Below are positions 5,900 to 33,163 of a stretch of DNA of 64,000 bases, piece by piece. The position numbers and the translations under genes were made by a program. This DNA is from an uncultured Lachnospiraceae bacterium. Its GTDB lineage: Bacteria > Bacillota > Clostridia > Lachnospirales > Lachnospiraceae. The stretch's first letter is position 1, and every line of letters starts with the position of its first letter. Under the pieces are notes generated by a model, which was given only the letters and a program-made list of their open reading frames with translations, was not told the origin of the DNA and searched no databases. The stretch lies in the NCBI GenBank assembly GCA_902768735.1, contig CACXMK010000009.1:23436-87435 (forward strand), read 5' to 3'.

Positions 5900-5928
5900 T
5901 TGGCAAAGAAAAGAGCAGGTGCTATAAT
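5900..5928 (+). promoter_or_regulatory. Sigma-A promoter for the NlpC/P60 gene
   Basis: TTGGCA (5900-5905), a 17-base spacer and a perfect TATAAT (5923-5928) lie about 100 bases upstream of the GTG start. Confidence 0.75.
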
Positions 5929-6029
5929 TATGAAGTCTGTATGACAAAATATTGTTATAGCGTTACGTTTGTGAACGAATTGTAACCCGGCGCGGGAATC
6001 ATTCTCCGATCCGGGTTTTCGGAGGCACA

Positions 6030-7889
6030 GTGAGAAACAGAACCTTATTTGAAAAGTTAATAAAGAAGTTAGGAATCCTCCTCCTGTCAGCGATGGTAAT
6101 GACAAGCACTGCTGCCGCGCCTTCCCTTATGGCGCTCGCCGATGAAGCCGGCGAAGGGAACGTCGATGACGGCGGAAGCAGTGATGACGGCGGAAGCGGA
6201 GATGACGGAGGAAGCGGAGACGACGGCGGAAGCGGAGACGACGGCGGAAGCGGAGATAATGGCGGAAGCGGAGACAATGGCGGAAGCGGAGACGACGGCG
6301 GAAGCGGAGACAACGGCGGAAGCGGAGATGACGGCGGAAGCGGAGACGACGGCGGAAGCGGAGACGACGGCGGAAGCGGAGACAATGGCGGAAGCGGAGA
6401 CGACGGCGGAAGCGGAGACGACGGCGGAAGCGGAGATGACGGCGGAAGCGGAGACGACGGCGGAAGCGGAGACGACGGCGGAAGCGGTGAGAACGCAGGA
6501 ACCGGCAGCGGCAGCGGCTCTACGCAGGAAGACGGAGGGGAATCCGGCGGATCCGGCACAGGGGGAACCTCTTACGGCAGCACGGAAGAAGGTACGACGA
6601 CCGGTTGGACAGAATACGCGCCGGCGGAGGAAGGAAGTACGGCGGCTATGACCGGAGCCACAAGCGAGACGGCTCCTGAGATCTTGGACCCGAGCCTTTT
6701 GGAAGTGACAGAAGTGACGGAAGAACCGGAAGGCTATCAGGAGGCTGACAATTATGACGGCTCCAACGAGGACCTGATCGCCCAGCAGCATATCGTGACG
6801 GACCTTCCTGTGATCCGCAAGGATTTCCGGTTCACAACCGTCGATAAGGTTTTGGCGTTCAGCAAAGAGGAGATGGATATTCTGGAGGAGAGGTCGGACA
6901 GCGCAGAGGTTGTCGGAACGATCGCAAGGAACGGTGTCCTCTATGAGCTCGAAGAGGAAGACGGCGGATGGCTCTATGTGGAGTCCGGCGAAGTGCGCGG
7001 ATTCGTCCATGCGGAAGATCTTTTCAGGGGCGAAGAAGCGGAGCAGATGTACGCGTATCTGCAAAAGCGCGCGGAGAGGATCTCGGCTATGCTTCCGACA
7101 GGTTTGTCCAAGGAGGCGTATTGCTTCACGGCCCAGCAGACAGTGCCTTATTATGAGAACAGCGCTTATGCGTTCCGGCGCATCACGACGCAGGATACGG
7201 TGATCGAGAAGCAGGCGGCTCTCGCGAAAGCGGAGACCGGGATCTTAGAAGGCACAGGAGAGGACGCACGGGAAGCCGGCAAACTCAGGGAAGGCGATCT
7301 GTTATATGTGATCGCAGATGCGGGCGGCGGCTGGTTGTTTGTGGAATCCGGAGATGTCCGGGGCTTTGTGAAAAAGACAGCGCTTGACCAAGGCGCGGCA
7401 GTGCAAAAGAAGATCGGAGAGTCCGGAGAAGACTCACTTTCTACAGCTTTGGAAGAGATCAAACCGGACGAGAACAAGGCGACGTACTATACGATCACAT
7501 CGATCAAGGAAGGCGCGAAATACAATGAAGTGAGGGAGAAGATCCTTGATCTTGCGCTCTCCTGTGTCGGAAATCCGTATGTGTGGGGCGGGACCAGCCT
7601 TACGCACGGAGCAGACTGTTCGGGCTTTGTGCAGACACTGTATTCCCGTTTCGGATACCGTCTTCCCAGAGTGGCAGCGGCACAGTCCAGAGTGGGGACG
7701 CAGATCCCCGTCAGCGATGCGGCGCCCGGAGACCTGATCTTCTTTGCCAGAAATGGATATGTCTACCACGTGGCGATGTACGCGGGTGATGGAAAGACCG
7801 TCGAAGCGTACAGCAGCGGCTACGGTATCATCACCAAGGAACTGAGTGAGAGAAACGCCGTCTGGGCGACAAGGATCATTGAAGACTGA
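6030..7889 (+). CDS. Secreted NlpC/P60 endopeptidase with SH3 domains and a Gly-Asp-Ser repeat linker
   Basis: This is a predicted cell-wall hydrolase that cuts peptidoglycan stem peptides. The 619-residue protein starts at GTG, with GGAGG 4 bases upstream. It has a signal peptide (about 1-36, ending near ALADEA) and a low-complexity linker of six-residue GSGDDG-type repeats (about 46-153). A Thr/Glu-rich stretch, two SH3-like segments (around 290-330 and 410-450, both with the GGWL(Y/F)VESG motif) and a C-terminal NlpC/P60 domain follow. The catalytic cysteine is Cys530 in GADCSGF and the catalytic histidine His580 in VYHVAMYAG. The third polar residue usual in this family is not obvious. 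The gene has its own promoter and terminator. The flexible acidic linker probably spans the wall. Confidence 0.9.
   Translation: MRNRTLFEKLIKKLGILLLSAMVMTSTAAAPSLMALADEAGEGNVDDGGSSDDGGSGDDGGSGDDGGSGDDGGSGDNGGSGDNGGSGDDGGSGDNGGSGDDGGSGDDGGSGDDGGSGDNGGSGDDGGSGDDGGSGDDGGSGDDGGSGDDGGSGENAGTGSGSGSTQEDGGESGGSGTGGTSYGSTEEGTTTGWTEYAPAEEGSTAAMTGATSETAPEILDPSLLEVTEVTEEPEGYQEADNYDGSNEDLIAQQHIVTDLPVIRKDFRFTTVDKVLAFSKEEMDILEERSDSAEVVGTIARNGVLYELEEEDGGWLYVESGEVRGFVHAEDLFRGEEAEQMYAYLQKRAERISAMLPTGLSKEAYCFTAQQTVPYYENSAYAFRRITTQDTVIEKQAALAKAETGILEGTGEDAREAGKLREGDLLYVIADAGGGWLFVESGDVRGFVKKTALDQGAAVQKKIGESGEDSLSTALEEIKPDENKATYYTITSIKEGAKYNEVREKILDLALSCVGNPYVWGGTSLTHGADCSGFVQTLYSRFGYRLPRVAAAQSRVGTQIPVSDAAPGDLIFFARNGYVYHVAMYAGDGKTVEAYSSGYGIITKELSERNAVWATRIIED
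6167..6490 (+). repeat. Tandem 18-base coding repeat
   Basis: About 18 imperfect copies of GGAAGCGGAGACGACGGC encode the GSGDDG linker. Variation is mostly GAC/GAT and GAC/AAC (Asp/Asn). The array has no stop codon in several other frames, which creates long spurious open frames on both strands. Confidence 0.95.
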
Positions 7890-7923
7890 CAGGGAACGGT
7901 GTTCCGTTCAAGAAATGGCATTA

Positions 7924-7952
7924 AAAAGACCGGCTCTATAGCCGGTCTTTTC
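7924..7952. terminator. Terminator between the convergent NlpC/P60 and YfhO-type genes
   Basis: The stem AAAAAGACCGGC/GCCGGTCTTTT flanks a TCTATA loop. A run of A on one side and T on the other makes it work in both directions. The stem sequence recurs at other terminators in this window. Confidence 0.85.
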
Positions 7953-7988
7953 GTATGGTCTGAATTTTTCAAACGATCCGCAGAGCTT

Positions 7989-10900
7989 TTATACCTCCGT
8001 CATTTTCGGCTTCCCGGCCCGGTGCGCAAGGACGACCCAGAGCAGGAACAGCAGGATGCCGGCAGCCGTCAGGCACCAGCCGTAGAAAAGGCCCGGCGTT
8101 TCGTAACGCAGCTCGATCGTGTGTTGTCCGGACGTCAGCCACAAGCCGGAAAACATGATGTTGACCTTTTCGAGAGTGACCGGCGTTCCGTCCACATAGG
8201 CTTTCCAGCCCTCCGAGTAGGGAATCGTGAGACACAGGAGTTTATTCCCGGAGACGGTGATCTCGCCTGTGACACGCGGGGAGACAAAACTGCTCGCGTT
8301 CTGGGAGATCTCCACCTTTTCGAGGGATTCCGCTGACAGAGCCGCCACCTTGCTCTTATAGGAAGCGAGAGGCTCGCTGATCACGGAGAACTCGTCGAAG
8401 TGATAGATGCCCGCCGCAGGGAATGTGACAACGATGGAAGTCAGCTCCTTTGTGATCGTGTAGGAGTTCAGGAGGAAGTCCTGCCGTCCGGAATAGAACT
8501 GCTCGTCGCCCGGCAGAATGTAGTTGACCCCGTTCTCCGTGACTTTTTTGCCGCTGCTCATAAAGGCAGCTTTGATCTTGATGTTCGTCAGGGGAGAGGA
8601 CTCCAGAACATCCTTGAAGAGCCAGTATTTTTCATAGTTTGACTTTTTGTCCAGCATCTCCTGCGTGTAAAGGTTGTCCGGATCATAGGACAGGTCATCG
8701 GAGTAGAGCTCGAGATCGCCGGTCTCACGGAACTGTATGTTCTTCATAAAGAGATAGCACTCTCCTTCGCCGACGGGGTCAAAAGACAGCTCCGCTTTGG
8801 CACCGCCTTTAGTGACGACAAAAGTGTTGGCGTCGGTCTGTACGATCTCCGCGCTCAGGCAGGAAACCCGGAACGGAACATTCCGGCACTCAAGCTTGCC
8901 GGCGAGCTCCTCTGCGGATCCTGCGGTCGCAAGGACGTTGTTGCTCTCGGTCACCGCATAGGAGAGAAGGAGCTCCTGCCGCTGTGCGGGCGTAAGCTGG
9001 TCGAACTTCTCCCTGCTGACCGTCTTATCATAGGTGTATCCTAGAGAGAGCGGATTCAGGTTAGCGTAAACGGCGTTAGCAGTGTTTTGGTCCAGTGAAG
9101 TTTCGCTGTAGCCCGCAGGGAGTTTCTCGGGATGCAGGCAGTACAGGTAACTCACAGAGGCAAGCTCGTTCAGGATCGCGCGGTTGTCGAGGAACGTGAA
9201 CTGCCAGGCGTTGTTGTTGACGTCGGAAACACCGAGAGCTTCCAGATACTCCAGGATATAGGGGTTGTTGACGCTCCAGAAGGACTGCGTTGTCGAAAGC
9301 CCGTTTAGGATGGAGGTATTCTGGTACCAATAGCCGGGTTCCGTGTTGGAGACACGTACGAATTTCGTTGTGTCGTGTCCGATGGCCGACGCGATCTGGG
9401 AAGTATCGTTGAGCCACATGTTCCGGTCATTGGCGGGAGAAGCGCCCATGCCGGTCCTGAAAGCAGCCAGACTGTCCATGTCCTTGTAGGTCTTGATACG
9501 GTTCTGGAAATCCGGATAGTTCTTGGAGATGCCGTTGATGCAGACACTGACGATCGTGAGGACCAGGACCCATCTCTGGGCGCGCCGGAAGCCGTTTGGT
9601 CTGCGAGCGGCTTTGCGGGCTGCTTTCTTTGCACCGGCCGTTTCCTCCGCGGCTATCTCTGCTGCCGCTTCTTCCGTTTCGGTTGCCCCGGTTCCTGTTA
9701 CTTCCGTTCCGGCTGCCCCGACTGCAGATGCCTTAATTGCAGTTGCCTCCGTTCCCTCTCTCCCGGGAACAGCCGCCTCAAACAGCTCCTTCTGGGAACG
9801 GAGCAGGTGAAGGAGCGTGAGGAATGTGAACGAGGCAGGCCCGAGGAACGTAAAGTCAAGTTCGTACGCGAGGAAGCAGCATACGACAAAATAGACCGTC
9901 AGTCCGGTTGTCATCACGCGCTTCTGATGTTCGTTCAGCGTAAAGAGGCCCGGCCACATCTCGGCGACCAGCATGCCGACCAGCGCGGAATAGGCCCAGC
10001 ACCAGCGGTCGATCGGGTAGGAGAAGCCGTTCGTCACATAGCCAAAAGCCGGGATAAAGAGCAGCGCGGAATACAGAAGGAACTGCAGGCGCAGCTTGAG
10101 GTATCCCTTGGTGCTGAACAGAAGGAAGACGCAAAGGAGAGCAGTGCCCGCGTAGCAGAGAGCACCGTATTCCACTTCGTTGCAGGCAAGAAAATCCACC
10201 GGCAGCATACGGCAAGTACGGATTTCGTAGAACAGATCGATCGCCGGCTTCATGCCTACGCGCTTGTTGGAGAGGACGGTAAGGGCCATCGGAAGAAGGA
10301 TGACGCCGCCCATGGCGACGCCGACAGTACCTGCGGCGAACATGACCCCGATCTCTTTAAAACGCCTGCCGATCTCCCCTTTGGCGATAGGGAAATACCG
10401 GAACAGCGCGTACAGGACTGCCATGAGCACGATGCTCACGATGAAATAGAAGTTGGCCACTGTCGCAAGGCAGACAGAAAAGATAAAGAGCCAGGGCTTT
10501 TGTCCCTCGCGCACCTTCTCGATCCCGAGGAGGACAAGGGGGAAGATGATGAGAGCGTTCAGGAAAATGGGCTGGCCGATACAGGTGATGAGAGCGAAGC
10601 CGCAGAATGTAAAGATCAAAGAACCCGCAAGGCACCCGTCCTCGTGTTCCGCTGACGGCCAGCGGAAGCGGCAGAGCGCGGCAAAAGCGATCCCCGAGAA
10701 GTAATTCTTGACAGGGATCAGGGCACAGTAGAACAGGTAGATATATTTTGCCGGAACAAGGGCGCTGAACAGATAGAAGGGGTCTCCCACGCCATAGTAC
10801 GCGAGCGTTGTCAGGGCGTCGGAACCGTAGCCGAGCGAGAACGAATAGGTGGAAATCGCCTTCCAGTTCCCGGTCAGCAGTGCCTTGAACGACTGGCGGT

Positions 10901-21102: not shown

Positions 21103-21148
21103 TTAAATGGTAAACAGGCGGCAGCGCAGGGCACAGAAGGAGCGGGTT

Positions 21149-22438
21149 TTGGAAGAAACAAGGGTCGGAAAAGCGGCTGAAGAAGCAGCCTTTACAATAG
21201 ATGAAACAGGAAAGGAATCCGGAAATGAAACGGGGAGCGGCACCAGGATCACGGTCTTTACGGGAAAGGGCGGTGTCGGCAAGACGAGCGCCATAGCTGC
21301 GCATGCGGTTCTCTGCGCCCGGAAAGGTGAAAAGACGATCCTTGTGAGCGCGGACATGGCGCATAACCTCGGAGATATCTTTGAGATCCGGACGGGAGGG
21401 GCTGTCGTGGAAGCGCAGAAAGACCTGTTCCTGCTCGAGCCGGACCCGGTGAAGATCATGCAGGAGGAGTTTCCGCAGGTCAACAAGGCGATCCTCGGGA
21501 TGCTCTCAGGAAAGAAGACCGTACCGGAAGAAGCGGGCCGGTTCATGGTCCCCGGGTTTGAGAATCTGTTCACCCTGCTCAAGATCAAGAAGCTGTACGA
21601 GAGCGGGGAGTACCGCCGTATCTTTGTGGACTGCGCGCCGTCCGGCGAGACGCTGTCCCTTTTAAAGCTCCCGGAGCTTCTCTCATGGTATATAGAGAAG
21701 TTCTTCCCTGTGGGGAAACTCATCACAAGAGTCCTGCGGCCCGTCTCGGGAGGCCTCTTTAAAGTACAGCTGCCGGACAGCGGTTCGATGGACGAGTTCC
21801 TGCGCCTGCACGGGGAACTGGTCGAACTGCAGGATCTCCTGAAAGACCCCTCGATCACAGATGTCCGTCTGGTAGCCCTTCCGGAGAAGATGGTCGTCGA
21901 AGAGACAAAGCGCACATACATGTACCTGAATCTCTACGGCTATCACGTCGACAGGCTCTTTATCAACAGGGTTCTCGGAGAACAAAGTGAGAACGCCTTT
22001 ACCCGGTACTGGAGAGAGATCCAGCAGGGCTATATGGAAGAACTGGAGCGCGTTTTCTGGCAGATCCCGGTCACAAAGATCCGGTGGTACGAGACGGAGA
22101 TCCGCGGGATCGATTCGCTTGAACGTCTCAGGCAGGACCTGCCGCCCTATGAGGAGCTGTTTGCCCCGGTCCCCGCGACCAGCGGTGAAAACTATGAGCC
22201 GGAAGGAGAAGGCTGGCGCCTCCATCTGTTTCTTCCCGGTACGGCGGACGCTAAAGTCAGCCGCTACGGGCTGGACCTTGATGTTGCCGCGGGCAACTGT
22301 CTGCGAAGGATCCCCCTGCCTCAGACGCTGTCCGCAATGGAGGTCCGGGAGGTCAGCCGTAAGGAGGACGGATTGGAAGTACTCTTTCTTCCTAAAGGCG
22401 CGGAGACAGGAGAGACGGAGGGAGGCGGCCGGGAATGA
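21149..22438 (+). CDS. ArsA/Get3-family ATPase with C-terminal Hsp20-like domain (first of two)
   Basis: This is a SIMIBI-class P-loop ATPase of 429 residues. The deviant Walker A GKGGVGKTS lies about 30 residues from the start, switch-like SADMAHNLGD follows, and then the VDCAPSGETLSLL block, all typical of ArsA/Get3. The last 80 or so residues (GWRLHLFLPGTADAKVSRYG onward) look like the small heat-shock/alpha-crystallin-type domain found in bacterial ArsA-like proteins. An ATG at 21107 is in frame but coincides with the predicted transcription start. The TTG chosen here has AAGGAG 6 bases upstream. No arsenite pump or ArsR is nearby, and the metal-binding cysteines of true ArsA are not evident. 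It overlaps the next gene by four bases (ATGA). Confidence 0.85.
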   Translation: MEETRVGKAAEEAAFTIDETGKESGNETGSGTRITVFTGKGGVGKTSAIAAHAVLCARKGEKTILVSADMAHNLGDIFEIRTGGAVVEAQKDLFLLEPDPVKIMQEEFPQVNKAILGMLSGKKTVPEEAGRFMVPGFENLFTLLKIKKLYESGEYRRIFVDCAPSGETLSLLKLPELLSWYIEKFFPVGKLITRVLRPVSGGLFKVQLPDSGSMDEFLRLHGELVELQDLLKDPSITDVRLVALPEKMVVEETKRTYMYLNLYGYHVDRLFINRVLGEQSENAFTRYWREIQQGYMEELERVFWQIPVTKIRWYETEIRGIDSLERLRQDLPPYEELFAPVPATSGENYEPEGEGWRLHLFLPGTADAKVSRYGLDLDVAAGNCLRRIPLPQTLSAMEVREVSRKEDGLEVLFLPKGAETGETEGGGRE

Positions 22439-23619
22439 GGATCATACTCTATACAGGAAAAGGCGGCGTCGGAAAGACCTGCATCGCGGCCGCGACGGCT
22501 GTCCGTGCAGCGGCTTTAGGGTACCGCACGCTGGTCATGAGCACGGACCAGGCGCATTCACTCGCGGACTGTTTCGAGAGACCGCTCAACGGGGAGATCA
22601 CGGCTGTTGCGCCGGGCCTCGACGCACTTGAAGTGGACATGGCCAGAGAAAGCCTAAGGCACTACGGAAAACTTAAGGAGTACCTTCGCCAGATCATCTC
22701 TGAAAAAGCACAGGGAGGGATCGCGGCGGAGGAAGCGCTGCTCTTTCCGGGACTTGAGGAGCTGTCTTCGCTCCTGAGGATCCTCGAGCTCTGCGAGGAG
22801 GACAACTATGATGTTCTGGTCGTAGACTGTGCGCCGACAGGGGAGACTCTGTCACTTCTGCGGTACCCGGAGCAGCTCGCTGTTTTGACAGACAAAGTCC
22901 TTCCGATGCTGCGAAGCATCACAAGCGCGTTCGGAAACCTGATCAGCAGGGCGACAACGGTGCCAAAACCCAGAGACGCTGTCTTCACGGAACTGGACCT
23001 GCTGGTCAAAAGATTGTGCGTTCTCAGGACGATCCTGTGCGACAGGAAGAAAACGAGCCTTCGGATCGTTATGACGCCGGAGCGGATCGTGATCGACGAG
23101 GCGGCGCGCAGCTATATGTGGCTCTGCGCGTTTGACTTTGGCGTGGACGCGGTCTTTGTCAACCGCATCTGGCCTGACGAGGCGCTGACAGGCAGTTTCG
23201 CGCCGTGGAGGGAAGTTCAGGAGGAGCGTCTTCTTGACATCGAGGGGAAATTTCCGCACCAGAAAAAGTTCTTCCTGCACCTGCAGAGCGAGGAGATCAG
23301 AGGCCTTATGATGCTGGAGAGGATCGCGGGCGCACTTTACGGGGAGGACCCCGCAGCCGGCGAAGATCCCGCCGCTATCTTCTGCGAGGAGGAAGCGTAT
23401 ACCATGGAGAGGGATCTCGGCGACGGCACCTGGTATCTTCTGATCCGCCTGCCCGGGGCGGACAGCAGCGAGATCGGCGTCCGCAAGGAGGAGGGGGACC
23501 TGATTCTGACTGTCAGGAACGAGACCAGGCGGATGCACCTGCCGGACAAGGTAGCAAACCGTACCCTGGCGGGGTGGGAAACAGACGGAAATGTGCTGCG
23601 GATCGGATTTACCTACTAG
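22435..23619 (+). CDS. ArsA/Get3-family ATPase with C-terminal Hsp20-like domain (second of two)
   Basis: This paralogue of 394 residues starts within the stop codon of its partner, so the two are translationally coupled. Walker A GKGGVGKTC begins at residue 8, the switch region is STDQAHSLAD, and VVDCAPTGETLSLLRYPEQL matches the partner. A C-terminal Hsp20-like domain (from about residue 315; WYLLIRLPGADSSEIGV) is present again. ArsA proteins use two nucleotide sites and Get3 forms homodimers, so a heterodimer of these two products is a reasonable inference. A client or substrate cannot be deduced. Candidates are tail-anchored or other hydrophobic proteins, given the chaperone-like tail. A terminator follows about 60 bases downstream. 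Confidence 0.87.
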   Translation: MRIILYTGKGGVGKTCIAAATAVRAAALGYRTLVMSTDQAHSLADCFERPLNGEITAVAPGLDALEVDMARESLRHYGKLKEYLRQIISEKAQGGIAAEEALLFPGLEELSSLLRILELCEEDNYDVLVVDCAPTGETLSLLRYPEQLAVLTDKVLPMLRSITSAFGNLISRATTVPKPRDAVFTELDLLVKRLCVLRTILCDRKKTSLRIVMTPERIVIDEAARSYMWLCAFDFGVDAVFVNRIWPDEALTGSFAPWREVQEERLLDIEGKFPHQKKFFLHLQSEEIRGLMMLERIAGALYGEDPAAGEDPAAIFCEEEAYTMERDLGDGTWYLLIRLPGADSSEIGVRKEEGDLILTVRNETRRMHLPDKVANRTLAGWETDGNVLRIGFTY

Positions 23620-23914: not shown

Positions 23915-24463
23915 ATGGGAGCTGCAGATGTTATGTATGAGCGGTTCGATAAGAATCTGCAGGCGGTCAACGGGAACAGTTGGCTTGCTACAGTACCGGA
24001 AGCCGCAGACATAATCGTAAATGCTTTCAAGGAGAACGGAATCCCGGACACATGTCTGTGCGAAACGCCGCTCCTTAAGGAAATGGGGTTGAAGAAAGCA
24101 CTGGAGGATGCAGGAATCACTGTCTATACAGACCATATCCGCCTGCATTCCGAGACCGCTAAGGGCGGAATCTGTGAGACCCAGTGCGGAATTGCCGACC
24201 TCGGCAGTGTTCTTCAGCTGGGTGACGATGTGGACGCACGTCTGGTCGCCGGAATGTCCGAGTACTATATTGGCATCGTGAGGCTGTCAACGATCGTAGA
24301 TGACTACGACGCAATGTTTGACCAGCTTTGCGCTATGGAAGAACTGCCTACGTTTGTCGGATTTATCACGGGACCGAGCCGCACTGCGGACATTGAGTGC
24401 GTAAGCACGGTGGGCGTGCACGGACCACTCAAACTCTCGATCCTTGTGGTCGCAGATGTCTGA
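23915..24463 (+). CDS. lutC: LUD-domain protein, LutC-like
   Basis: This is a 182-residue single-domain member of the LUD family, best matched to LutC/YkgG of the lactate-utilisation iron-sulfur complex. Typical features are the ETPLLKEMGL segment, ETQCGIADLGSVL and the C-terminal FITGPSRTADIE followed by GVHGP, which is the LUD signature. The AAAGGAG ribosome binding site is well placed. It is the first gene of a run that continues with the LutB-LutA fusion 25 bases on. LutABC in Bacillus oxidises L-lactate to pyruvate; the exact role of LutC is not established. The neighbouring lactate permease supports a lactate role here. Confidence 0.88.
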   Translation: MGAADVMYERFDKNLQAVNGNSWLATVPEAADIIVNAFKENGIPDTCLCETPLLKEMGLKKALEDAGITVYTDHIRLHSETAKGGICETQCGIADLGSVLQLGDDVDARLVAGMSEYYIGIVRLSTIVDDYDAMFDQLCAMEELPTFVGFITGPSRTADIECVSTVGVHGPLKLSILVVADV

Positions 24464-24488
24464 TGAGAGCAGAAGGGAGGCGGAAGTA

Positions 24489-26648
24489 ATGGCGAATGAA
24501 GCTTTAAAGCAGGAAATCCAGTCTGCTCTGCGCAATACGACACTCAGCAGGACGCTTGGAAAATTCTGCGAAACCTATCCCGAGAAACGCCTTAAATCCT
24601 ATGCAGGCGTTAATTTTGAGGAAACAAGAGACAGCATCCGGGAAGTTAAGGGATATGCCGCAGAGCATATCGACGAGATGATCGAAAAGTTTACGAAGAA
24701 CTGCACCGCGCGCGGCGGTCACGTTTTCCATGCCACCAGCACGGAAGAGGCAATGGAATATGTTCGTAATCTGGTCAGGGAAAAGGGCGTAAAGACGATC
24801 GTCAAGTCCAAGTCGATGGCGTCGGAAGAGCTGCACATGAACAAGGTCCTCGGGGACGACGGCGTCCTCGTGCAGGAGACGGACCTCGGCGAGTTTATCA
24901 TCGCGCTCGAGGGAAATACGCCCGTGCACATGGTCATGCCCGCGCTGCATCTGAACAAGGAGCAGGTCGCGGATCTGTTCACGGATTATACCAAAGAAAA
25001 GAATGAACCCATCATTGCGGAAGAGGTCAAGACCGCCCGTAAAGTGATGAGAGAGAAATTCACCCATGCCGATATGGGCGTATCAGGCGCCAACGTTGCA
25101 GTCGCGGAGACAGGTACAGTCTTTACGATGACCAACGAGGGCAACGGCCGCATGGTCGGTACGCTGCCGAAGATCCATCTGTATGTGTTCGGTATCGAGA
25201 AATTCGTCAACAGCCTGTCTGACGCACGCTATATCTTTAAAGCCCTTCCGAGAAACGGCACGGGCCAGAGACTGACGACGTATCTCTCCCTGTACACAGG
25301 CGCCACCGAAGTGTGTCTTGACAAAGATACAGACGAGAAGGGACCGAAGGAGTTCTACTGCGTGATCCTCGATGATCCCGGAAGGCGCGAGATCCTCGCG
25401 GACGAAGATTTCCGCGAAGTCTACGACTGCATCCGCTGCGGCGCGTGCCTTGACGTATGTCCCGCGTTTGCGCTCCTTGGCGGCCATGTCTACGGAAGTA
25501 AAGTATATACAGGCGGTATCGGAACCATCCTGTCCCATTTCCTCGTATCCGAGGAGCGCGCGGAGCAGATCCAGAATATCTGCCTGCAGTGCGGCCGATG
25601 CAAGGAAGTCTGCGGCGGCGGTCTCCATATTCCGGAGATGATCATGAAGCTGCGTGAGAGGAGCACAGAGAAGCATCAGAATCCTACCTACAAGTTTGCC
25701 CTCGATGCTGTAAGTGACAGGAAACTGTTCCACTCCATGCTCAGGATCGCGTCCATCGCACAGCCCGCGTTCATGAAGCCGGGCCAGCCGATGATGCGCC
25801 ATTTGCCGATGTTCCTGTCAGGTCTTTCTGAAGGAAGAAGCCTTCCCAAGATCGCACAGGTGCCGTTCAGGGATATTTTCCCGACGATCCCGCAGAACGT
25901 AGAGAATCCGAAGGGTAAGATCGCGATCTTTACAGGATGCCTGTTAGACTTCGTCTATGTGGATACGGCGACGGCGATCATCAAGGATCTCAACTCCATC
26001 GGCTATGTGGTGGATATGCCCATGGGCCAGTCCTGCTGCGGCGCGCCTGCTACCTATATGGGCGACAGGAAGAACGCGACTGTTACTGCGAAGCTGAACG
26101 TGGATGCCATGTCGGCAGAGAACTACGATTACATTGTTTCCGCATGCCCGACCTGCACTCATCAGCTGCGCGAGTACCAGGAGTTCCTTAAGGATGATCC
26201 TGAGTACTACGAGAAGGCGAAGGCTCTGGGAGAGAAGGCATACGATTTCTGCAAACTCTTCCATATGCTCGGCGGACTTTCCGATGAGGGCGACGGCAAG
26301 GAGATGAACATCACCTATCACGATTCCTGCCACCTCAAGAGGAGTATGGGCGTGTATGAGGAGCAGAGAGAACTCCTTACACATACAAAGGGAGTCCACC
26401 TGACCGAGATGAAGGAAAGCGATGTCTGCTGCGGCTTCGGCGGCACATACAGCATCAAATTCCCGGAGGTAGCAACTCCGATCCTTGCCAAGAAGATCGA
26501 GCACATCAAAGAGACCGGCGCCGATACGGTGGCGGTTGACTGCCCCGGCTGCATGATGCAGATCAGCGGCGGACTTGATGCAAGAGGCCTTGACGTGGAC
26601 GTGAAACACACCGCAGTGATCATTGCGGAAAAGAGAGGACTGATGTGA
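24489..26648 (+). CDS. LutB-LutA fusion: iron-sulfur lactate oxidation protein
   Basis: This 719-residue protein joins two proteins that are usually separate. The N-terminal part is LutB-like: a LUD region (about 60-300, with GANVAVAETGT) and a bis-[4Fe-4S] ferredoxin segment with CIRCGACLDVCP from Cys314 and CLQCGRCKEVC from Cys365. The C-terminal part is LutA/GlpC-like, with two CCG domains: GCLLDFVYVDT, then SCCGAP and ACPTCTHQ, followed by HDSCHLKRSMG, CCGFGG and DCPGCMMQ. Such CCG cysteine clusters bind non-cubane or cubane iron-sulfur centres in heterodisulfide-reductase-like enzymes. The start has GGGAGG upstream. Together with the LutC-like gene it gives a full Lut set, predicted to oxidise lactate in the cytoplasm and hand on electrons. 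Confidence 0.9.
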   Translation: MANEALKQEIQSALRNTTLSRTLGKFCETYPEKRLKSYAGVNFEETRDSIREVKGYAAEHIDEMIEKFTKNCTARGGHVFHATSTEEAMEYVRNLVREKGVKTIVKSKSMASEELHMNKVLGDDGVLVQETDLGEFIIALEGNTPVHMVMPALHLNKEQVADLFTDYTKEKNEPIIAEEVKTARKVMREKFTHADMGVSGANVAVAETGTVFTMTNEGNGRMVGTLPKIHLYVFGIEKFVNSLSDARYIFKALPRNGTGQRLTTYLSLYTGATEVCLDKDTDEKGPKEFYCVILDDPGRREILADEDFREVYDCIRCGACLDVCPAFALLGGHVYGSKVYTGGIGTILSHFLVSEERAEQIQNICLQCGRCKEVCGGGLHIPEMIMKLRERSTEKHQNPTYKFALDAVSDRKLFHSMLRIASIAQPAFMKPGQPMMRHLPMFLSGLSEGRSLPKIAQVPFRDIFPTIPQNVENPKGKIAIFTGCLLDFVYVDTATAIIKDLNSIGYVVDMPMGQSCCGAPATYMGDRKNATVTAKLNVDAMSAENYDYIVSACPTCTHQLREYQEFLKDDPEYYEKAKALGEKAYDFCKLFHMLGGLSDEGDGKEMNITYHDSCHLKRSMGVYEEQRELLTHTKGVHLTEMKESDVCCGFGGTYSIKFPEVATPILAKKIEHIKETGADTVAVDCPGCMMQISGGLDARGLDVDVKHTAVIIAEKRGLM

Positions 26649-26651
26649 GCC

Positions 26652-27617
26652 GTGAGTACTGTTTCCGGCATGTATGAGGAGACACCTTTACAAAAACGCG
26701 ACGGAAAACTTACTGTCCGCATGGCCGTAGGCCTTGCGGCGCCGCATACGTTTGCGGCATCCGTCTGCCCGGCCCTGTTCGGGATCCTGTACTGTGTTTA
26801 CAGACACTTTCCCATAAGGATCTATGAGGCGGTCATGCTTTTTGCGGCTTGTGTCCTTATGCAGGCATCAGTCAATACGATCAATGATTACATGGACTTT
26901 ATAAGCGGGGCGGATTCCGCGGAGGACAATGTGGAGAAGTCGGATTCCATTCTGGTCTTTTCCGACCTTGCACCGTGGAGGGCACTTGCTCTGGGCTGCT
27001 CCTTTTTAGCGATCGCGCTTCTGATCGGAAGCTATTTCGTGATCCGGCGCGGCCCGGCACCGCTTGTCATAGGCGTCATCGGAGCCACGGTAGTGGTCCT
27101 GTATTCCGCGGGACCCCTGCCTGTTTCCCACCTGCCGGTAGGAGAACTGGTATCGGGCTTTACGATGGGAGGTCTTATCCCGCTCGGGATCACCGCAGCG
27201 GTAACGGGCGAGATCCATCCGGAGGTCCTTATATACAGCATTCCGTTTATGGTGGGGATCGGCCTGATCATGATGACGAATAACACCTGTGATATCGAGA
27301 AGGACCTTCGGGCAGGCCGCATGACGCTTCCGGACACGATCGGAAGACCGCACTCGGTACGCCTTTACAGAAGCCTCGTTCTCGTATGGATTGTGTCGAT
27401 CTTCCTGTACGCGTTGTCCCTTCACCCGCTCGCCGGTGCTTTCGGGGCACTCATGCTGATACCGGGATACCTGTTCGCGTTCCGGTACCTCATGCAGTCG
27501 CCTTTGATCCCTCAGACACGTATTGCGCAGATGAAAGGGATCCTGAAAGCGAACCTTACCGGCTCCGCGATCTGCCTGGTGATCCTGGCAGCCGTGGCGG
27601 TGACCGGGAGGCTGTAA
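26652..27617 (+). CDS. menA: MenA-like UbiA-family prenyltransferase
   Basis: This integral membrane prenyltransferase has 321 residues and about nine helices. In the MenA group the enzyme attaches a polyprenyl chain to 1,4-dihydroxy-2-naphthoate. The first aspartate-rich motif is NTINDYMDFISGAD (about 74-88) and the second NNTCDIEKDLRAGR (about 208-222); both are expected for magnesium-diphosphate binding. The start is a GTG 3 bases after the LutBA stop; an ATG 18 bases downstream is possible, but neither has a strong ribosome binding site. It sits between Lut and MenG genes, which supports a quinone product. The other men genes are not in this window, so the aromatic substrate might be taken up rather than made. 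Confidence 0.85.
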   Translation: MSTVSGMYEETPLQKRDGKLTVRMAVGLAAPHTFAASVCPALFGILYCVYRHFPIRIYEAVMLFAACVLMQASVNTINDYMDFISGADSAEDNVEKSDSILVFSDLAPWRALALGCSFLAIALLIGSYFVIRRGPAPLVIGVIGATVVVLYSAGPLPVSHLPVGELVSGFTMGGLIPLGITAAVTGEIHPEVLIYSIPFMVGIGLIMMTNNTCDIEKDLRAGRMTLPDTIGRPHSVRLYRSLVLVWIVSIFLYALSLHPLAGAFGALMLIPGYLFAFRYLMQSPLIPQTRIAQMKGILKANLTGSAICLVILAAVAVTGRL

Positions 27618-27661
27618 GCGGACAAGACAGGAATTCCTTTAAAAAGACAAAGGTATCGCGT

Positions 27662-28390
27662 ATGGAAGAACGCGCAGGCTACGGCAAGCAGGAAAAAGTT
27701 TATCGCATTTTCGAGCAGATCGCCGGAAGGTACGACAGTGCTAACGTGCGGATCAGTCTCGGGATGCAGCGGTTGTGGAAGAAAATGCTGGCGGACCGGC
27801 TTGTGAAGGACGTAGGTTCTATGTCCGCGAAAGCCCCCCTGATCCTGGACCTGTGCACCGGCACGGGAGACATAGCGATCGCTGCCGCGCGCAGAAGACC
27901 GGAGTGGAAAGTCATCGGACTGGATTTTTCACCGGCCATGCTCGAAAGAGCCATGGAGAAAGGGGCAAAATACCGATGCCGCAATATCCGTTGGGAACAG
28001 GGGGACGCGATGGCGATCCCGCATCCGGACGGGGCTTTTGAGGCGGTAACGATCTCATTCGGGCTCAGGAATTGTGCCGATACCGGCACGGTGCTCCGGG
28101 AGATCGCCAGGGTATTGAAACCGGAGGGGGTGCTTTTGTGCATGGATTCCTTCGTTCCGTCAAATAAAGCCGTAAGGCCCTTCTACAGAATATATTTCCG
28201 GTTTCTGATGCCGCTTCTCGGCGGCGGAGGAACACACAGGAAAGAGTACGTCTGGCTCTCAGAATCCACAGAAGGGTTCTGTACGCCGGAGGAACTCGCA
28301 CAGATCATGCAGGAATGCGGACTTGCAAAACCTGTCATTTCCCGGCGGATGCTGGGGGCCTGTGTGCTGCTGGAAACCCAAAAGGCCTGA
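27662..28390 (+). CDS. menG: MenG/UbiE-type quinone C-methyltransferase
   Basis: This SAM-dependent methyltransferase of 242 residues methylates demethylmenaquinone in the last step of menaquinone synthesis. Features include the N-terminal IFEQIAGRYDSANVRISLGM, which matches the UbiE/MenG signature, SAM motif I LDLCTGTGDIAIAAA (about 61-75), GLDFSPAML, and the family block FGLRNCADTGTVLREIARVL followed by KPEGVLLCMD. The open frame starts far upstream inside menA, but this ATG has AAAGG 8 bases before it. It is 44 bases after menA and 41 bases before the FixC-like gene, all on one strand. Confidence 0.88.
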   Translation: MEERAGYGKQEKVYRIFEQIAGRYDSANVRISLGMQRLWKKMLADRLVKDVGSMSAKAPLILDLCTGTGDIAIAAARRRPEWKVIGLDFSPAMLERAMEKGAKYRCRNIRWEQGDAMAIPHPDGAFEAVTISFGLRNCADTGTVLREIARVLKPEGVLLCMDSFVPSNKAVRPFYRIYFRFLMPLLGGGGTHRKEYVWLSESTEGFCTPEELAQIMQECGLAKPVISRRMLGACVLLETQKA

Positions 28391-28431
28391 ACTAAAGCTG
28401 CGAACCACGTTATAGGAGGTTTGGAAATATT

Positions 28432-29694
28432 ATGAGTGAAGAAAAATTTGATGCCATAGTCGACCTGCTCGCGCAGGCAGAGATGGAAGTCCTTCTGATC
28501 GAGAGAGGTGATTTCTGCGGCGCCAAGAATGTGACCGGCGGCAGGCTGTACGCGCATACGCTGGAAAAGGTCATTCCCGGATTTGCGGAGGAAGCACCTG
28601 TAGAGCGTAAGGTAACAAAAGAGAGAATCGCGCTGATGACGGAAAAGGGTGCGGTCAATATCGAGTATGCGTCCGGCAGGGAAGATGATGCGAAGTCAGC
28701 TTCCTACACGGTGCTCCGCGGAAAATTCGATAAATGGTTCGGCGACAAAGCGGAAGAAGCCGGCGTCATGATGGTTCCCGGGATCCGTGTGGATTCCTGT
28801 ATCGTTGAGGACGGTAAGGTCGTCGGGATCGACGCGGGCGGCGAAGCGATGTACGCCGATGTGGTCGTGCTGGCGGACGGCGTCAACTCGCTCCTTGCTC
28901 AGCAGCTCGGCCTGAAGAAGGAACTGGATCCTTCCCAGGTGGCTGTAGGATGTAAGGAAGTCATCCAGCTCGGTGAAGACGTGATCAACCAGCGCTTTAA
29001 TTTAAAGAGCGGTGAAGGCGTGGCAATGCTGGTCGCCGGAGATCCCACTGTCGGCAATATCGGCGGCGGCCTGATCTACACCAACAAAGACTCTGTCTCG
29101 GTCGGTATCGTCACGACCTGCAGCGATATCGGAAGAGTGGACGTTTCCGTTCCCGATATGCTGGAGAGATTTAAGAACCACCCTGCGGTGGAACCTCTGA
29201 TCGAGGGCGGCATCCCGCTGGAGTATTCGGCACATCTGGTTCCCGAAGGCGGATTTGACATGATCCCGCAGCTGTATACGGACAATGTCCTCGTTGTCGG
29301 CGATGCGGCGGCATTCGTCGTCAACCTCGGCTATACAGTGCGCGGCATGGATTACGCGATTGAGTCCGGTCGTCTTGCGGCTGAGACCATCATCCGCGCA
29401 AGGGATCTGGGCGGCGATTATTCGGCGGCCAATATGTCCTACTATCAGACGCTTTTGGAAGACAGCTGCATTTTCAGGGATATGAAGCAGTACAGGAACT
29501 TCCCGAAGCTCTTAGAGCGTCATGAGATCTTCAACGACGTGCCTCAGATCGCCGATGTTCTCTTTGATAAGCTGTTCCGCGTGGACGGAGAAAAGCCTGT
29601 GTCACTTCCTATGTTCGCGATCGACGAGATCGCGAAGAGGACCTCTGCGCAGAAGCTTCTTGAACTTGTAATGGTGGCGCTGGACGCTCTGTAA
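28432..29694 (+). CDS. FixC-like flavoprotein lacking the N-terminal FAD-binding motif
   Basis: This 420-residue protein is similar along its length to FixC/ETF-quinone oxidoreductases. After IERGDFCGAKNVTGGRLYAH come VLRGKFDKWF, VLADGVNS, a DNVLVVGDAAAFVVNLGYTV segment and RGMDYAIESG. The expected N-terminus FDAIIVGAGPAG...LLA is missing. The protein reads FDAIVDLLAQAEMEVLLIERG-like sequence, about 11 residues short, removing the GxGxxG that holds the FAD diphosphate. The usual glycine of the following helix is Glu (AEMEV). No stop or frameshift occurs and an AGGAGG site precedes the ATG, so the gene is expressed but may not bind FAD normally. It pairs with fixX downstream. No fixA/fixB is present, so the electron donor is probably the Lut complex, by inference. 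Confidence 0.85.
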   Translation: MSEEKFDAIVDLLAQAEMEVLLIERGDFCGAKNVTGGRLYAHTLEKVIPGFAEEAPVERKVTKERIALMTEKGAVNIEYASGREDDAKSASYTVLRGKFDKWFGDKAEEAGVMMVPGIRVDSCIVEDGKVVGIDAGGEAMYADVVVLADGVNSLLAQQLGLKKELDPSQVAVGCKEVIQLGEDVINQRFNLKSGEGVAMLVAGDPTVGNIGGGLIYTNKDSVSVGIVTTCSDIGRVDVSVPDMLERFKNHPAVEPLIEGGIPLEYSAHLVPEGGFDMIPQLYTDNVLVVGDAAAFVVNLGYTVRGMDYAIESGRLAAETIIRARDLGGDYSAANMSYYQTLLEDSCIFRDMKQYRNFPKLLERHEIFNDVPQIADVLFDKLFRVDGEKPVSLPMFAIDEIAKRTSAQKLLELVMVALDAL

Positions 29695-29756
29695 AGAGCG
29701 GCAGGTACCCGCAGTTGAAGGTAGTAAGCACAAGTGCTTCGACATGGAGGTAAAAA

Positions 29757-30044
29757 ATGGCTAAGAAAGTACCAGTAGATGATAAGCTCGGTTACAACAG
29801 GTTTAATACCGACGAGAGCTATGCCCACATCGAGATCAACGAAGATTTCAAGGATGAAGCGGAGATCAGAAAAGTAGTTCTCGCCTGCCCGGCGGAACTG
29901 TATAAGTATGAAAACGGAGAACTCACATTTAACCATGAGGGATGCCTGGAATGCGGCACCTGCCGCGTCGTTTCCGGCGGCAAAGTTGTCAAAACATGGA
30001 ATCACCCTTATGGCGGCGCCGGCGTGACCTATATGCAGGGCTAA
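29757..30044 (+). CDS. fixX: FixX ferredoxin-like protein
   Basis: This small iron-sulfur protein has 95 residues and closely matches the layout of enterobacterial FixX. The N-terminus is VPVDDKLGYNRFNTDESYAH, and four cysteines lie in ACPAELYKY and GCLECGTCR, enough for one [4Fe-4S] cluster. The C-terminus is WNHPYGGAGVTYMQG, equivalent to the family's W-YP-GG-GV ending. FixX normally works with FixC to pass electrons toward quinone. It follows the FixC-like gene by 62 bases with its own GGAGG site. The pair without FixAB is unusual. A terminator follows about 80 bases later. Confidence 0.9.
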   Translation: MAKKVPVDDKLGYNRFNTDESYAHIEINEDFKDEAEIRKVVLACPAELYKYENGELTFNHEGCLECGTCRVVSGGKVVKTWNHPYGGAGVTYMQG

Positions 30045-30122
30045 GCCGCGCTGCAGAAAAGATCTTTTATCGGGACGAAATGCTGCAGCAGATCCGGGTA
30101 AACAGATCTCTTCATACGGAAC

Positions 30123-30162
30123 TTCCGGAGCGGGAGGGGGGCCTGCTCCGGAAATGTTTTTC
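30123..30162 (+). terminator. Terminator after fixX
   Basis: TTCCGGAGC pairs with GCTCCGGAA around a G-rich loop, followed by ATGTTTTTC. The lactate permease gene lies beyond it and may have its own promoter or be reached by read-through. Confidence 0.7.
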
Positions 30163-30220
30163 GACTCTGCCCCGAAAGGGTTGAGATAGTTACAATTTAT
30201 TTTATAGGGAGGTAAATGTA

Positions 30221-31933
30221 ATGTATGCACTGATAGCTTTTGTACCCATTATTCTCACCATCGTTCTGATGGTCGGCTTCAACTGGCCGGCAAAGAGAGC
30301 ACTGCCGCTGGCATGGATCGTAGCCGTTGTGATCGGTGTTGCGCTTTGGAGTATGCCCATCATCAGTACGGATGGCAAGAGCGCGGTAGGACAGACGATC
30401 CTCGGCTTCTTAAGCGCCTTTGAGACCCTGGTCATCATCTTCGGCGCGATCCTGATCATGAACACGCTGTCCCAGTCGGGCGCTATGGCGGCGATCAACG
30501 GCATGTTCAAAGGTATCACTCCTGACGCGAGACTGCAGGCCATCATCATCGGCTTCATCTTCGGCGCGTTCATCGAAGGCGCGGCAGGATTCGGAACACC
30601 GGCGGCGCTGGCTGCACCGCTCCTGATCTCTGTCGGTTTCCCGCCTCTTTGCGCGGCAATGGTGGCTCTGATCTACAACTCCGTGCCTGTTTGCTTCGGC
30701 GCAGTTGGAACACCTACCAACATGGCTTTCACGACAGTGAAAGACGCAGTTGGTGCTCTTGGCGGCGACCTTGACGCGTGGAAGATGGCGCTGACATTCT
30801 GGTCCGCTCTTCCTCTGGCGATCGGCTGCGCAGTCATTCTGTTCATTGGCGTCGGCTTCGTCTGCAAATTCTACGGCAAGGACAAGAAGTTCAGCGATGT
30901 GTTCCCTGTAATTCCGTACATCCTGTTCGTTACGATCACATTCGATATCTTCTATCTCCTGATCGCTGCATTCATCGGTCCCGAGCTGGTGTCCCTGCTC
31001 GCCGCGATCATCACCCTGCTGATCACTCTGGTTACCACAAAGAATGGTTTCCTTGTTCCTAAGGAAGTGTGGACATTCGACAAGAAGGACAACTGGGACA
31101 AGACCTGGCTTGCAACAACAAAAGTTCCGGAACCCAAGATCAGTGACATGGCACTCGTTAAGGCGTGGACGCCTTATTTCATCATCGCAGGCCTCCTGGT
31201 TCTGACCCGTGTGGCACAGAAATTCGGTGTTGGTATTTTTGACAAGATGAAGAGCTTCACGATCGGTACCGGCTCCAGCGGAATCATCCTGGGCGGCAAC
31301 TGGAACTGGGCAATCCTCTGGAACCCCGGCATTGTGTTCATCATTGTCGCTCTGATCACGATCCCTCTTCACGGCATGAGCAATGAGAACGTTAAGACCG
31401 CTTGGAAGGGCGCTCTGAACCAGGTCAAAGGCGCGGCGATCGCGCTGCTGTTCGGTGTTGCGATGGTCAATATCTTCCGTTTCACCTCCATGCCGGCAGA
31501 CAGGATTCCCGCAGGCGTGGCGGAAGGCGTATCCTACTCCATGCTTTACTCCATGGCGAAGGGCCTGGCTGATGTCGCCGGCGGCGCATACCTTGTGATC
31601 GCTCCGTTCATCGGCGTGCTCGGTGCTTACATGTCCGGATCCAACACGGTTTCGAACACACTGTTTGCTTCCCTGCAGTTCACGACCGCAGGTCTGGTCG
31701 GACTTCCTTACGTCCTTGTTGTTGCCCTGCAGAATAACGGCGGCGCGATCGGCAACATGATCTGCGTCAACAACGTCGTCTCCGCCTGCGCTACGACAGG
31801 TACCAACGGCAACGAAGGTAAGATCATCAAGACCAACGTCATTCCTTGCGCATGCTTCTGCATCATCGTTATGCTGGTCATGGCGATCGCGATCATGATG
31901 GGCGCGAACCCTCAGGCGCTGCCCTATACCTAA
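30221..31933 (+). CDS. L-lactate permease family transporter
   Basis: This large secondary transporter has 570 residues and about 14 membrane helices, of the LctP/GlcA family that takes up lactate (or glycolate) with protons. The conserved block [19 protein letters not shown] is present, as are [15 protein letters not shown] in the middle and [20 protein letters not shown] near the C-terminus. The GGGAGGTAA site precedes the ATG. Its position right after lutC-lutBA-menA-menG-fixC-fixX makes lactate the likely substrate and gives the main support for calling the block a lactate-oxidation locus. Confidence 0.93.
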
Positions 31934-31999
31934 ATGACGGTATGTCCGGAAGCAGCATGACCGCGGTACTTTAATCTGCGGTACAAACTGACTTGACAA

Positions 32000-32069
32000 A
32001 GTCCCATCAGGCACTGCTTGGAGGCGTGCAATAACGCGCAGGCATGCAGATGTCTGGTGGGACTCTTTG
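32000..32069 (+). terminator. Long hairpin after the lactate permease, probable terminator
   Basis: AGTCCCATCAGGCA (32000-32013) pairs with TGTCTGGTGGGACT (32051-32064), with two G-T pairs, over a 37-base structured loop and followed by CTTTG. The weak T run makes it an imperfect terminator. Confidence 0.5.
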
Positions 32070-32076
32070 CGTGAAG

Positions 32077-32129
32077 CAATGAGCCATGCTTCGACAAGCC
32101 GGCAGTGAAATTGTCAGCATGGCTCATTG
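32077..32129 (+). other. Perfect 14-base inverted repeat upstream of the polyprenyl synthase gene
   Basis: CAATGAGCCATGCT (32077-32090) and AGCATGGCTCATTG (32116-32129) can form a stem over a 25-base loop; a further GTGA/TCAC pair extends it. There is no T run, so it is more likely a leader structure or operator than a terminator. Confidence 0.55.
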
Positions 32130-32182
32130 TCTCACAAAAAAAGAACTCACAGAAAAGCCATGCATTTATAAAGGATGGTGCG

Positions 32183-33163
32183 ATGCACAGATTTGACATC
32201 GGATTAGCGGAAGAACTGAAGATCGTGGAGAAATATCTGCAGGAGTTTCTGGGCGCGGAAGGGAGCGTCTCCCAGATCCGCGATATCCTGCAGGATATAG
32301 CGCTCTCCGGCGGAAAGAGGCTTCGTCCGCAGCTCCTTCTTCTTGCGGCGCAGTTCGGGCCGCAGTATGAAGAAAAAAAAGAGAGGCTGTGCTGCCTTGC
32401 TGCGCTTGTTGAGATGGTTCACGCGGCTTCCCTGGTCCATGACGATATCGTGGACGACTCCCCGACGCGCAGAGGCAGGAGCTCTATTCAGTCCAAGTAC
32501 GGAAAAGACAGGGCTGTCTATGCCGGAGATCTTCTTCTGAGCCGCATCGTAAAGCAGCTTTTCAAAGAGCGTTTTTACCGGGTGGGAGAACTGTTTGGAC
32601 GGGCTGTGGAGGAGATGTGTCTCGGAGAGCTCGGGCAGATGGAATGTCTTTTTGATGCGGATGTGGAGGTCGAACGCTACCTGCGGAATGTGGACGGCAA
32701 AACAGCGGCGCTGTGCAGGCTCGCCTGCAGCGCGGGCGCGCTTGAAAGCGGCGCGTCACAGGAGACGGCAGCGCACCTGGTCGCTTTCGGAGAGAATTTC
32801 GGCAGACTGTTCCAGATCCACGACGATCTGCTTGACTATGTATCGGATGCCTGTTCAGAAGGAAAACCGGTCATGATGGATTTTAAGAGCGGCATCCTGA
32901 CGCTGCCCGTTCTTTACGCGCTAAAGACAGAGGCGGCAGGGGAGGGGATCCGGTCCCTGCTTGAAAAGGCCAGGCAAGGGATTTTTACGGAGGATGACAG
33001 CGGGGAGTTGGGAAGGCTCGTCCGCGATTCCGGCGGCATCGCAGAGGCGCGGCGAGATTTAGAACGGTATGCGGAGGCGGCGTTCGAAGCCCTGGATCAG
33101 CTTCCGCCCTGCCGTGCGCGGGAAATCCTCGCGGCACTGGCCGCGCGGCTCTCGCGAGACTGA
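32183..33163 (+). CDS. Polyprenyl diphosphate synthase
   Basis: This trans-prenyltransferase of 326 residues builds the isoprenoid chain for a quinone or similar lipid. GGKRLRPQL lies near the N-terminus, the first aspartate-rich motif HDDIVDDSPTRRG starts near Asp87 and the second, IHDDLLDY, near Asp214. This matches long-chain (hepta- to octaprenyl) synthases such as HepT, although chain length cannot be read reliably. The open frame starts 26 codons earlier; the ATG chosen has AAAGGA at 7 bases and starts at the usual place. Being next to the lactate/quinone genes suggests that it supplies the chain for MenA. Confidence 0.88.
   Translation: MHRFDIGLAEELKIVEKYLQEFLGAEGSVSQIRDILQDIALSGGKRLRPQLLLLAAQFGPQYEEKKERLCCLAALVEMVHAASLVHDDIVDDSPTRRGRSSIQSKYGKDRAVYAGDLLLSRIVKQLFKERFYRVGELFGRAVEEMCLGELGQMECLFDADVEVERYLRNVDGKTAALCRLACSAGALESGASQETAAHLVAFGENFGRLFQIHDDLLDYVSDACSEGKPVMMDFKSGILTLPVLYALKTEAAGEGIRSLLEKARQGIFTEDDSGELGRLVRDSGGIAEARRDLERYAEAAFEALDQLPPCRAREILAALAARLSRD

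Follow-up and report, generated by a model that had tools for sequence, protein, structure and literature searches.

A candidate L-lactate:quinone oxidoreductase cassette joining LdhGH to FixCX in Lachnospiraceae and other anaerobes

Genes at the locus

We analysed a window of 64,000 nucleotides (the whole stretch of DNA under study) from an uncultured Lachnospiraceae bacterium (assembly GCA_902768735.1, contig CACXMK010000009.1, positions 23,436 to 87,435 of the forward strand), in which genes for an iron-sulfur lactate dehydrogenase, quinone synthesis, FixC, FixX and a lactate permease follow one another. The window lies on contig 9 of a host genome, G000, that is 85.5% complete. Reading frames and profile searches confirmed the gene order given in an initial annotation of this DNA: all eight named genes lie on the plus strand between 23915 and 33163, and each matches its named family. 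Judged by sequence, the LutC-like protein is LdhG and the LutB-LutA fusion is LdhH. No fixAB adjoins the fixCX genes, and on this point too the annotation was borne out. The features of the locus are listed here with the evidence for each.

23915..24463, plus strand: ldhG (LutC/LldG-like), small LUD-domain subunit of the predicted iron-sulfur L-lactate dehydrogenase; PF02589 (LUD_dom), 84 bits
24489..26648, plus strand: ldhH (LutB-LutA fusion), large subunit with a LUD domain, two CX2CX2CX3C motifs and two CCG domains; NF045670, 1009.6 bits (cut-off 800); PF02754 in two stretches
26652..27617, plus strand: menA-like UbiA prenyltransferase; PF01040, 103 bits; best NCBIfam match PRK13387, 150 bits, below its cut-off of 316
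27662..28390, plus strand: ubiE/menG methyltransferase; TIGR01934, 209 bits (cut-off 158)
28432..29694, plus strand: fixC, flavoprotein resembling electron-transferring flavoprotein (ETF)-quinone oxidoreductase, without 11 residues around the GxGxxG motif that binds flavin adenine dinucleotide (FAD); NF007450, 467.7 bits (cut-off 466)
29757..30044, plus strand: fixX, ferredoxin-like, with cysteines for one [4Fe-4S] cluster (C44, C63, C66, C69); PRK15449, 80 bits, below its cut-off of 166; PDB 7koe chain D, E = 4.5e-17
30123..30153, plus strand: terminator-like stem-loop after fixX; 12-pair stem and T tail, a consensus match only
30221..31933, plus strand: lctP, lactate permease; PF02652, 349 bits
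32105..33163, plus strand: polyprenyl diphosphate synthase; PF00348, 213 bits

The family name of NF045670 is L-lactate dehydrogenase (quinone) large subunit, and the cysteine motifs of LdhH stand at residues 314 and 365; the open frame also offers an upstream TTG start at 24444. The ubiE/menG frame begins at 27386, with the TIGR01934 match starting at residue 105 of this long frame, which points to 27662 as the likely start. The 12-pair stem is the longest terminator-like stem of the region, and because it sits between fixX and lctP, the permease and prenyl synthase genes may be transcribed separately from those upstream, a weak indication given that the terminator scan returned 13 sites against 11.1 expected. 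The window held no RNA family at gathering scores and no tRNA.

The same layout of a small LUD protein and a large LUD-ferredoxin-CCG fusion is found in DVU3032-33 of Desulfovibrio vulgaris, an enzyme of the LdhGH/LutABC/LldEFG type. It is reported to act as an L-lactate dehydrogenase, its deletion slowing growth on L-lactate only, with a partial effect (PMC4481167). The reported D. vulgaris operon adds acetate kinase, phosphate acetyltransferase and a D-lactate enzyme (PMC4481167), whereas the window cassette instead carries FixCX and quinone-synthesis genes.

Conservation and descent of the cassette

A FixC profile scan of genomes found 323 relatives, of which the best 80 were kept. Thirty-two of these had a FixC identity of at least 58% and a complete start (L075-L105, L128) and, with L155, which was found through LdhH, they make up an LdhGH-linked set of 33 loci; L081 and L088 were called LdhGH-linked by FixC identity, their contigs beginning before the ldhH position. 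L131, with a FixC cut by the contig start, was excluded from the locus counts, and L125, also cut, was excluded from the tree and kept among 47 other FixC loci. Etf matches were scored anywhere in the stretch around a locus (one lies 9.7 kb away), using EtfA and EtfB of the window genome as queries.

Within the LdhGH-linked set, UbiE was found at all 33 loci, MenA and FixX at 32 each, LdhH at 31 and LdhG at 29, and the loci without LdhH, LdhG, MenA or FixX are those cut by a contig end (L081, L087, L088, L091, L128). A prenyl synthase was present in 23 and Etf in 3. The 47 other loci among the best 80 of 323 had FixX in 46 and an Etf match in 33, and neither LdhH nor LdhG in any. The commonest order is ldhG-ldhH-prenyl synthase-menA-ubiE-fixC-fixX, often with arsA1-arsA2 before or after it; the prenyl synthase lies between ldhH and menA in 21 of the 23 loci having one, and at the end, as in the window, in L075 and L079. 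FixC of the LdhGH-linked group adjoins LdhGH wherever the contig extends far enough.

Carriers belong to Lachnospiraceae, Oscillospiraceae, Filifactoraceae, Megasphaera and Fusobacterium, and include Frisingicoccus caecimuris, Megasphaera paucivorans, M. cerevisiae, M. hutchinsoni, [Eubacterium] yurii and Fusobacterium vincentii (L155). The gene order on which the initial annotation depended is kept in relatives and outside the phylum. Chance adjacency was rejected, because the core order recurs, far beyond chance, in F. vincentii, the five Bacillota isolates named above and many other genomes. The F. vincentii record (NZ_CP084075.1) is a 2.1-Mb circle filed as a plasmid, and its size suggests a chromosome.

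A pair of ArsA/Get3-type ATPase genes just upstream in the window, at 21107-23619, belongs to the same neighbourhood. An ArsA match was found at 23 of the 33 cassette loci, Fusobacterium included; the four Megasphaera loci with ldhGH had none in the stretch covered, which in one of them, L098, ends shortly after fixX.

21107..22438, plus strand: arsA1, ArsA/Get3-type ATPase, conserved neighbour; PF02374, 228 bits
22435..23619, plus strand: arsA2, ArsA/Get3-type ATPase with an HSP20-like domain, conserved neighbour; PF02374, 236 bits; PF17886, 48 bits; TIGR00345, 205.6 bits (cut-off 135)

To follow the descent of the cassette we built a tree of 81 FixC proteins. The 34 rows labelled LdhGH-linked formed one group among EtfAB-linked FixC, with a support of 99 in the Shimodaira-Hasegawa-like approximate likelihood ratio test (SH-aLRT), in a tree of the quick type rooted on two archaeal rows, with several long-branched EtfAB-linked rows and two of the 34 labelled by rank. 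Pairwise distances of LdhH and FixC correlated across 29 loci (r 0.79, with 0 of 2000 permutations as high), as did those of seven other gene pairs (r from 0.54 to 0.87, no permutation out of 2000 reaching the observed value for any pair), correlations that include the shared descent of the hosts. For all nine genes tested, the nearest copies to those of Fusobacterium are in [Eubacterium] yurii. Because the distances correlate and the Fusobacterium genes lie nearest to [Eubacterium] yurii, the gene set seems, on sequence comparison, to have travelled together, crossing between phyla on at least one occasion.

Co-occurrence was examined in a genus sample of 25 genomes, where LdhH and the LdhGH-linked FixC occurred together in 12 and were both lacking from the other 13, the 12 carriers not being independent owing to their relatedness within the genus. 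That LdhH might be common in the class, making such co-occurrence trivial, was rejected: with scoring limited to the top two candidates of each genome, LdhH was above cut-off in 1 of 391 class genomes, the window's own.

A proposed route from L-lactate to quinone

Two of the menaquinone genes in the cassette, MenA (PF01040) and MenG (TIGR01934), exceed their family cut-offs, and residues N78, D79, D82, D214 and D218 of the MenA-like protein are invariant across 7 aligned copies. The genes menD and menB, described as missing in the initial annotation, are indeed wanting: neither MenD nor MenB was above cut-off in any of 61 genus genomes (menF, menC, menE and menH were not searched), in searches that placed each above cut-off in 7 of 14 control genomes and gave weaker wider-family matches in nearly all. 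MenD and MqnA were likewise found in 0 of 7 carrier genomes each, one of them the 2.1-Mb circular record. These seven do not all lie outside the 61, because G041 of the genus sample is apparently the genome of L075 (G464): the contig, the coordinates and the E value of its MenD-like match are identical. MqnA was above its cut-off of 26 bits in 2 of the 61 (35.5 and 26.3 bits), both of them genomes other than the window's that were not tested for the cassette. The window genome itself gave a single MqnA match of 22.9 bits, below cut-off.

Because no MenD, MenB or MqnA was above cut-off in the carriers searched, carriers seem unable to make the naphthoate ring, yet equipped to add prenyl and methyl groups to it. 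Reliance on a naphthoate precursor from outside, as first suggested, fits the absence of menD and menB and is plausible from the gene content. Consistent with this, menA and ubiE are present in P. melaninogenicus, which is reportedly likely to draw on 1,4-dihydroxy-2-naphthoate (DHNA) from its neighbours (PMC5738691). The cassette carriers also resemble quinone auxotrophs such as Lactiplantibacillus plantarum, which have prenylation genes without a complete menaquinone pathway. In L. plantarum, outside DHNA is reported to be enough for extracellular electron transfer, and mutants without the two prenylation genes still carry out this process (PMC10746273), so prenylation need not be the point. 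The quinone of those auxotrophs serves extracellular electron transfer or growth, whereas here the genes lie inside a lactate dehydrogenase operon.

These data allow us to propose that the conserved genes encode an L-lactate:quinone oxidoreductase, moved between bacterial groups as a unit, a reading that we hold tentatively and rate at close to an even chance. LdhGH, as a flavin-free iron-sulfur enzyme, would oxidise L-lactate to pyruvate and pass the electrons to the single [4Fe-4S] cluster of FixX, from which they would reach the FAD of membrane-sited FixC and reduce a naphthoquinone. MenA, UbiE/MenG and the polyprenyl synthase would build this quinone locally from the DHNA of neighbours. 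It is the contact between LdhGH and FixX, the direction of electron flow, the identity of the quinone and the uptake of its precursor that we infer here. Transfer from lactate to menaquinone would run downhill, because the reported potentials are -190 mV for lactate (PMC5861303) and -74 mV for menaquinone (PMC10734219).

The model for the second half of this route is the FixABCX/EtfABCX complex. In the Thermotoga maritima EtfABCX, electrons are described as travelling by way of the EtfX (FixX) clusters to the EtfC (FixC) FAD and on to menaquinone (PMC10734219). The FixC of L075 matches chain C of PDB 7koe with an E value of 7e-83, and the window FixX matches chain D as listed above. The cassette differs in that FixA and FixB (EtfAB) are absent from it and LdhGH stands in their place in the gene order, with no sign of bifurcation; LdhGH would thus take the position that FixAB has in the complex.

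Evidence against the route and competing explanations

Several observations weigh against this route, both in the cassette and in the rest of the genome. The MenA protein falls below every listed NCBIfam menA cut-off in the window, and likewise in Frisingicoccus and Fusobacterium. FixX gives no clear sign of a changed partner, because a single cluster is often seen in EtfAB-linked FixX as well. Four or more cysteines ahead of the main FixX motif, whose absence might mark the loss of an EtfAB-facing cluster in favour of a new donor, were seen in 0 of 33 LdhGH-linked proteins but also in just 9 of 32 EtfAB-linked ones, by an automated count that missed L134, which looks like a tenth. A known exit for the quinol is also wanting in many carriers: cytochrome bd was found in 0 of 19 and NrfD in 6 of 19, so that 13 are left without either of the quinol-oxidising families searched (fumarate reductase was not searched). 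The remaining points concern ETF and the window FixC, and are set out below.

The six carriers with NrfD are the six genus genomes that have a second FixC. In the window genome this second set is on contig 30 (L021), where fixC2 and fixX2 are accompanied by a second copy each of menA and the prenyl synthase gene, by tatC and by molybdoenzyme genes together with NrfD, the molybdoenzyme families having been determined in the homologue L034. The second set with NrfD is a plausible quinol exit in the window genome. The same arrangement of fixC, fixX, menA and prenyl synthase by tatC and a Tat-signal molybdoenzyme with NrfD occurs at L021 (G000:C30), L034, L036, L037, L038 and L115 (Sarcina sp. DSM 11001); it forms a second, separate quinone system, seen in the same six genus genomes as NrfD. 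After the second prenyl synthase comes a protein with a CxxxC motif near its start, radical SAM-like by eye (L038, 6181-7137), with homologues near 13.7-14.2 kb of L110, L111, L115 and L141 and at 5.3 kb of L108.

The initial annotation proposed an ETF-free route. The window cassette indeed contains no fixAB or etfAB, but a single etfAB pair lies on contig 7 of the window genome, away from fixCX; the two are not adjacent, and a partnership in trans is possible. Neither this placement nor the gene order kept in relatives refutes the initial proposal. This pair lies near an enoyl-CoA hydratase gene, with hydroxyacyl-CoA dehydrogenase and thiolase genes nearby by inspection. No acyl-CoA dehydrogenase matched in the 20 kb around it, and no GlcD-like protein matched there or in the window (the rest of the genome was not searched). 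An ETF match was found in 56 of the 61 genus genomes. In the sample of 25, matches numbered 2, 2, 4, 0, 7, 4, 2, 6, 2, 2, 0 and 2 in the 12 carriers (G000, G007-G011, G013, G014, G018, G022-G024) and 2, 2, 2, 2, 3, 2, 2, 2, 2, 0, 4, 4 and 2 in the 13 non-carriers (G001-G006, G012, G015-G017, G019-G021). ETF counts do not track the cassette in these genomes, and the idea of an extra ETF pair accompanying it was rejected. The two carriers without a match, G009 and G023, are both incomplete genomes; G041 has none either.

Three relatives carry genes for a GlcD-like FAD-linked oxidase, EtfB, EtfA and an acyl-CoA dehydrogenase adjoining the cassette, identified by families in L097 and L155 and by 93 to 94% identity to L097 in L128.

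L155 (F. vincentii), 4199-8583: GlcD-like oxidase, EtfB, EtfA and acyl-CoA dehydrogenase genes
L097, 93-4539: the same genes
L128, 189-4470: the same genes

The GlcD-like oxidase is a probable lactate dehydrogenase, and the acyl-CoA dehydrogenase of L097 is closest to acryloyl-CoA reductase (NF042972, 523 bits, below its cut-off of 640). In Fusobacterium nucleatum, D-lactate dehydrogenase forms a cluster with ETF and butyryl-CoA dehydrogenase that is reported to carry electrons from D-lactate to crotonyl-CoA (PMC12630350), and we regard the F. vincentii genes as that same cluster. With these genes beside the cassette, routes for D- and L-lactate may be encoded next to each other in L155, L097 and L128. 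The LctBCD/Ldh-EtfAB system of anaerobes shares its substrate and its kind of host with the cassette, but is a flavin enzyme acting through EtfAB. Because etfAB lies elsewhere in the window genome and ETF clusters stand beside the cassette in three relatives, 'ETF-free' may be true of the cassette and not of the cells.

These clusters also favour a different flow of electrons, in which LdhGH would reduce quinone directly and FixCX would run in reverse, from quinol through FixC and FixX to EtfAB and on to an acyl-CoA dehydrogenase and its enoyl-CoA. The cell would then link lactate oxidation to the making of butyrate or propionate, by a route that is not ETF-free. Such a shuttle is in keeping with the likeness of the L097 dehydrogenase to acryloyl-CoA reductase, with the wide presence of ETF in the genus and with the F. 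nucleatum precedent, and it would provide a quinol exit where none is known. We nevertheless consider it rather unlikely: Etf lies within the stretch in only 3 of 33 loci, the number of ETF matches is no guide to whether the cassette is present, ETF is unmatched in two of the 12 genus carriers (incomplete as both genomes are), and no acyl-CoA dehydrogenase matched near the ETF pair of the window genome. LdhGH and FixCX could, instead, be two parallel entries to one quinone pool, LdhGH reducing quinone itself and FixCX being an ordinary ETF:quinone oxidoreductase for an EtfAB coded elsewhere, the two kept together only because both need quinone. NCBIfam already labels LdhH as quinone-linked, FixC and FixX match the EtfABCX chains, and G000 has EtfAB. 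This explanation we judge unlikely, the LdhGH-linked FixC group being seldom near Etf yet next to LdhGH wherever the contig allows, and LdhH and this FixC always occurring together in the 25 genus genomes.

The window's own FixC raises a further alternative. Its frame is short by 33 bases (11 residues) holding the FAD-binding GxGxxG, the gap being in frame, and the motif is kept in 7 other aligned FixC proteins, the second FixC of the window genome among them. With no FAD motif in this FixC, electron passage through it is doubtful in the window's own genome. The cassette might be decaying, the loss being real, the cassette dead in this strain and the conserved function confined to relatives; in favour of this, the FixC of L075, 95% identical to the window protein, retains the 33 bases. 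We regard decay as highly improbable: the remaining genes are open, and the ratio of non-synonymous to synonymous substitution rates (dN/dS) against L075 is 0.049 for the rest of FixC and 0.039 for LdhH, indicating strong constraint. A metagenome assembly fault would give the same picture as a recent loss in the strain, and the data fit both alike.

Taken together, the passage of electrons from the Lut-type proteins through FixX and FixC to quinone, as first proposed, agrees with the conserved gene order, the lack of adjoining fixAB and the absence of menD and menB, but sits less well with the gap in the window FixC and the etfAB pair of its genome. A wider form of the proposal is possible, at somewhat less than an even chance: a portable lactate-respiration cassette of Bacillota and Fusobacteriota in which LdhGH would have replaced FixAB as the donor to FixCX, with its own quinone made from a neighbour's precursor and a dedicated ArsA-type ATPase pair.

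We found no published description of the cassette in the open-licence literature, including any text pairing LutB with FixX, and neither FixC nor LutB is named in the main texts of a 2025 F. nucleatum lactate paper (PMC12630350) or a 2022 gut lactate survey. In this arrangement of known gene families, FixCX is seen outside its usual FixAB complex. To our knowledge, the hand-over of electrons from the soluble Lut, Lld and LdhGH enzymes to the membrane is unsolved, and the cassette names a testable partner for them. It suggests that certain anaerobes of the gut and mouth send lactate electrons along a path that bypasses the usual flavoprotein partner. If this is true, the cassette would be the missing link from soluble Lut-type enzymes to the membrane quinone pool, and a genetic marker for gut and mouth anaerobes whose use of L-lactate may depend on naphthoate from a neighbour.

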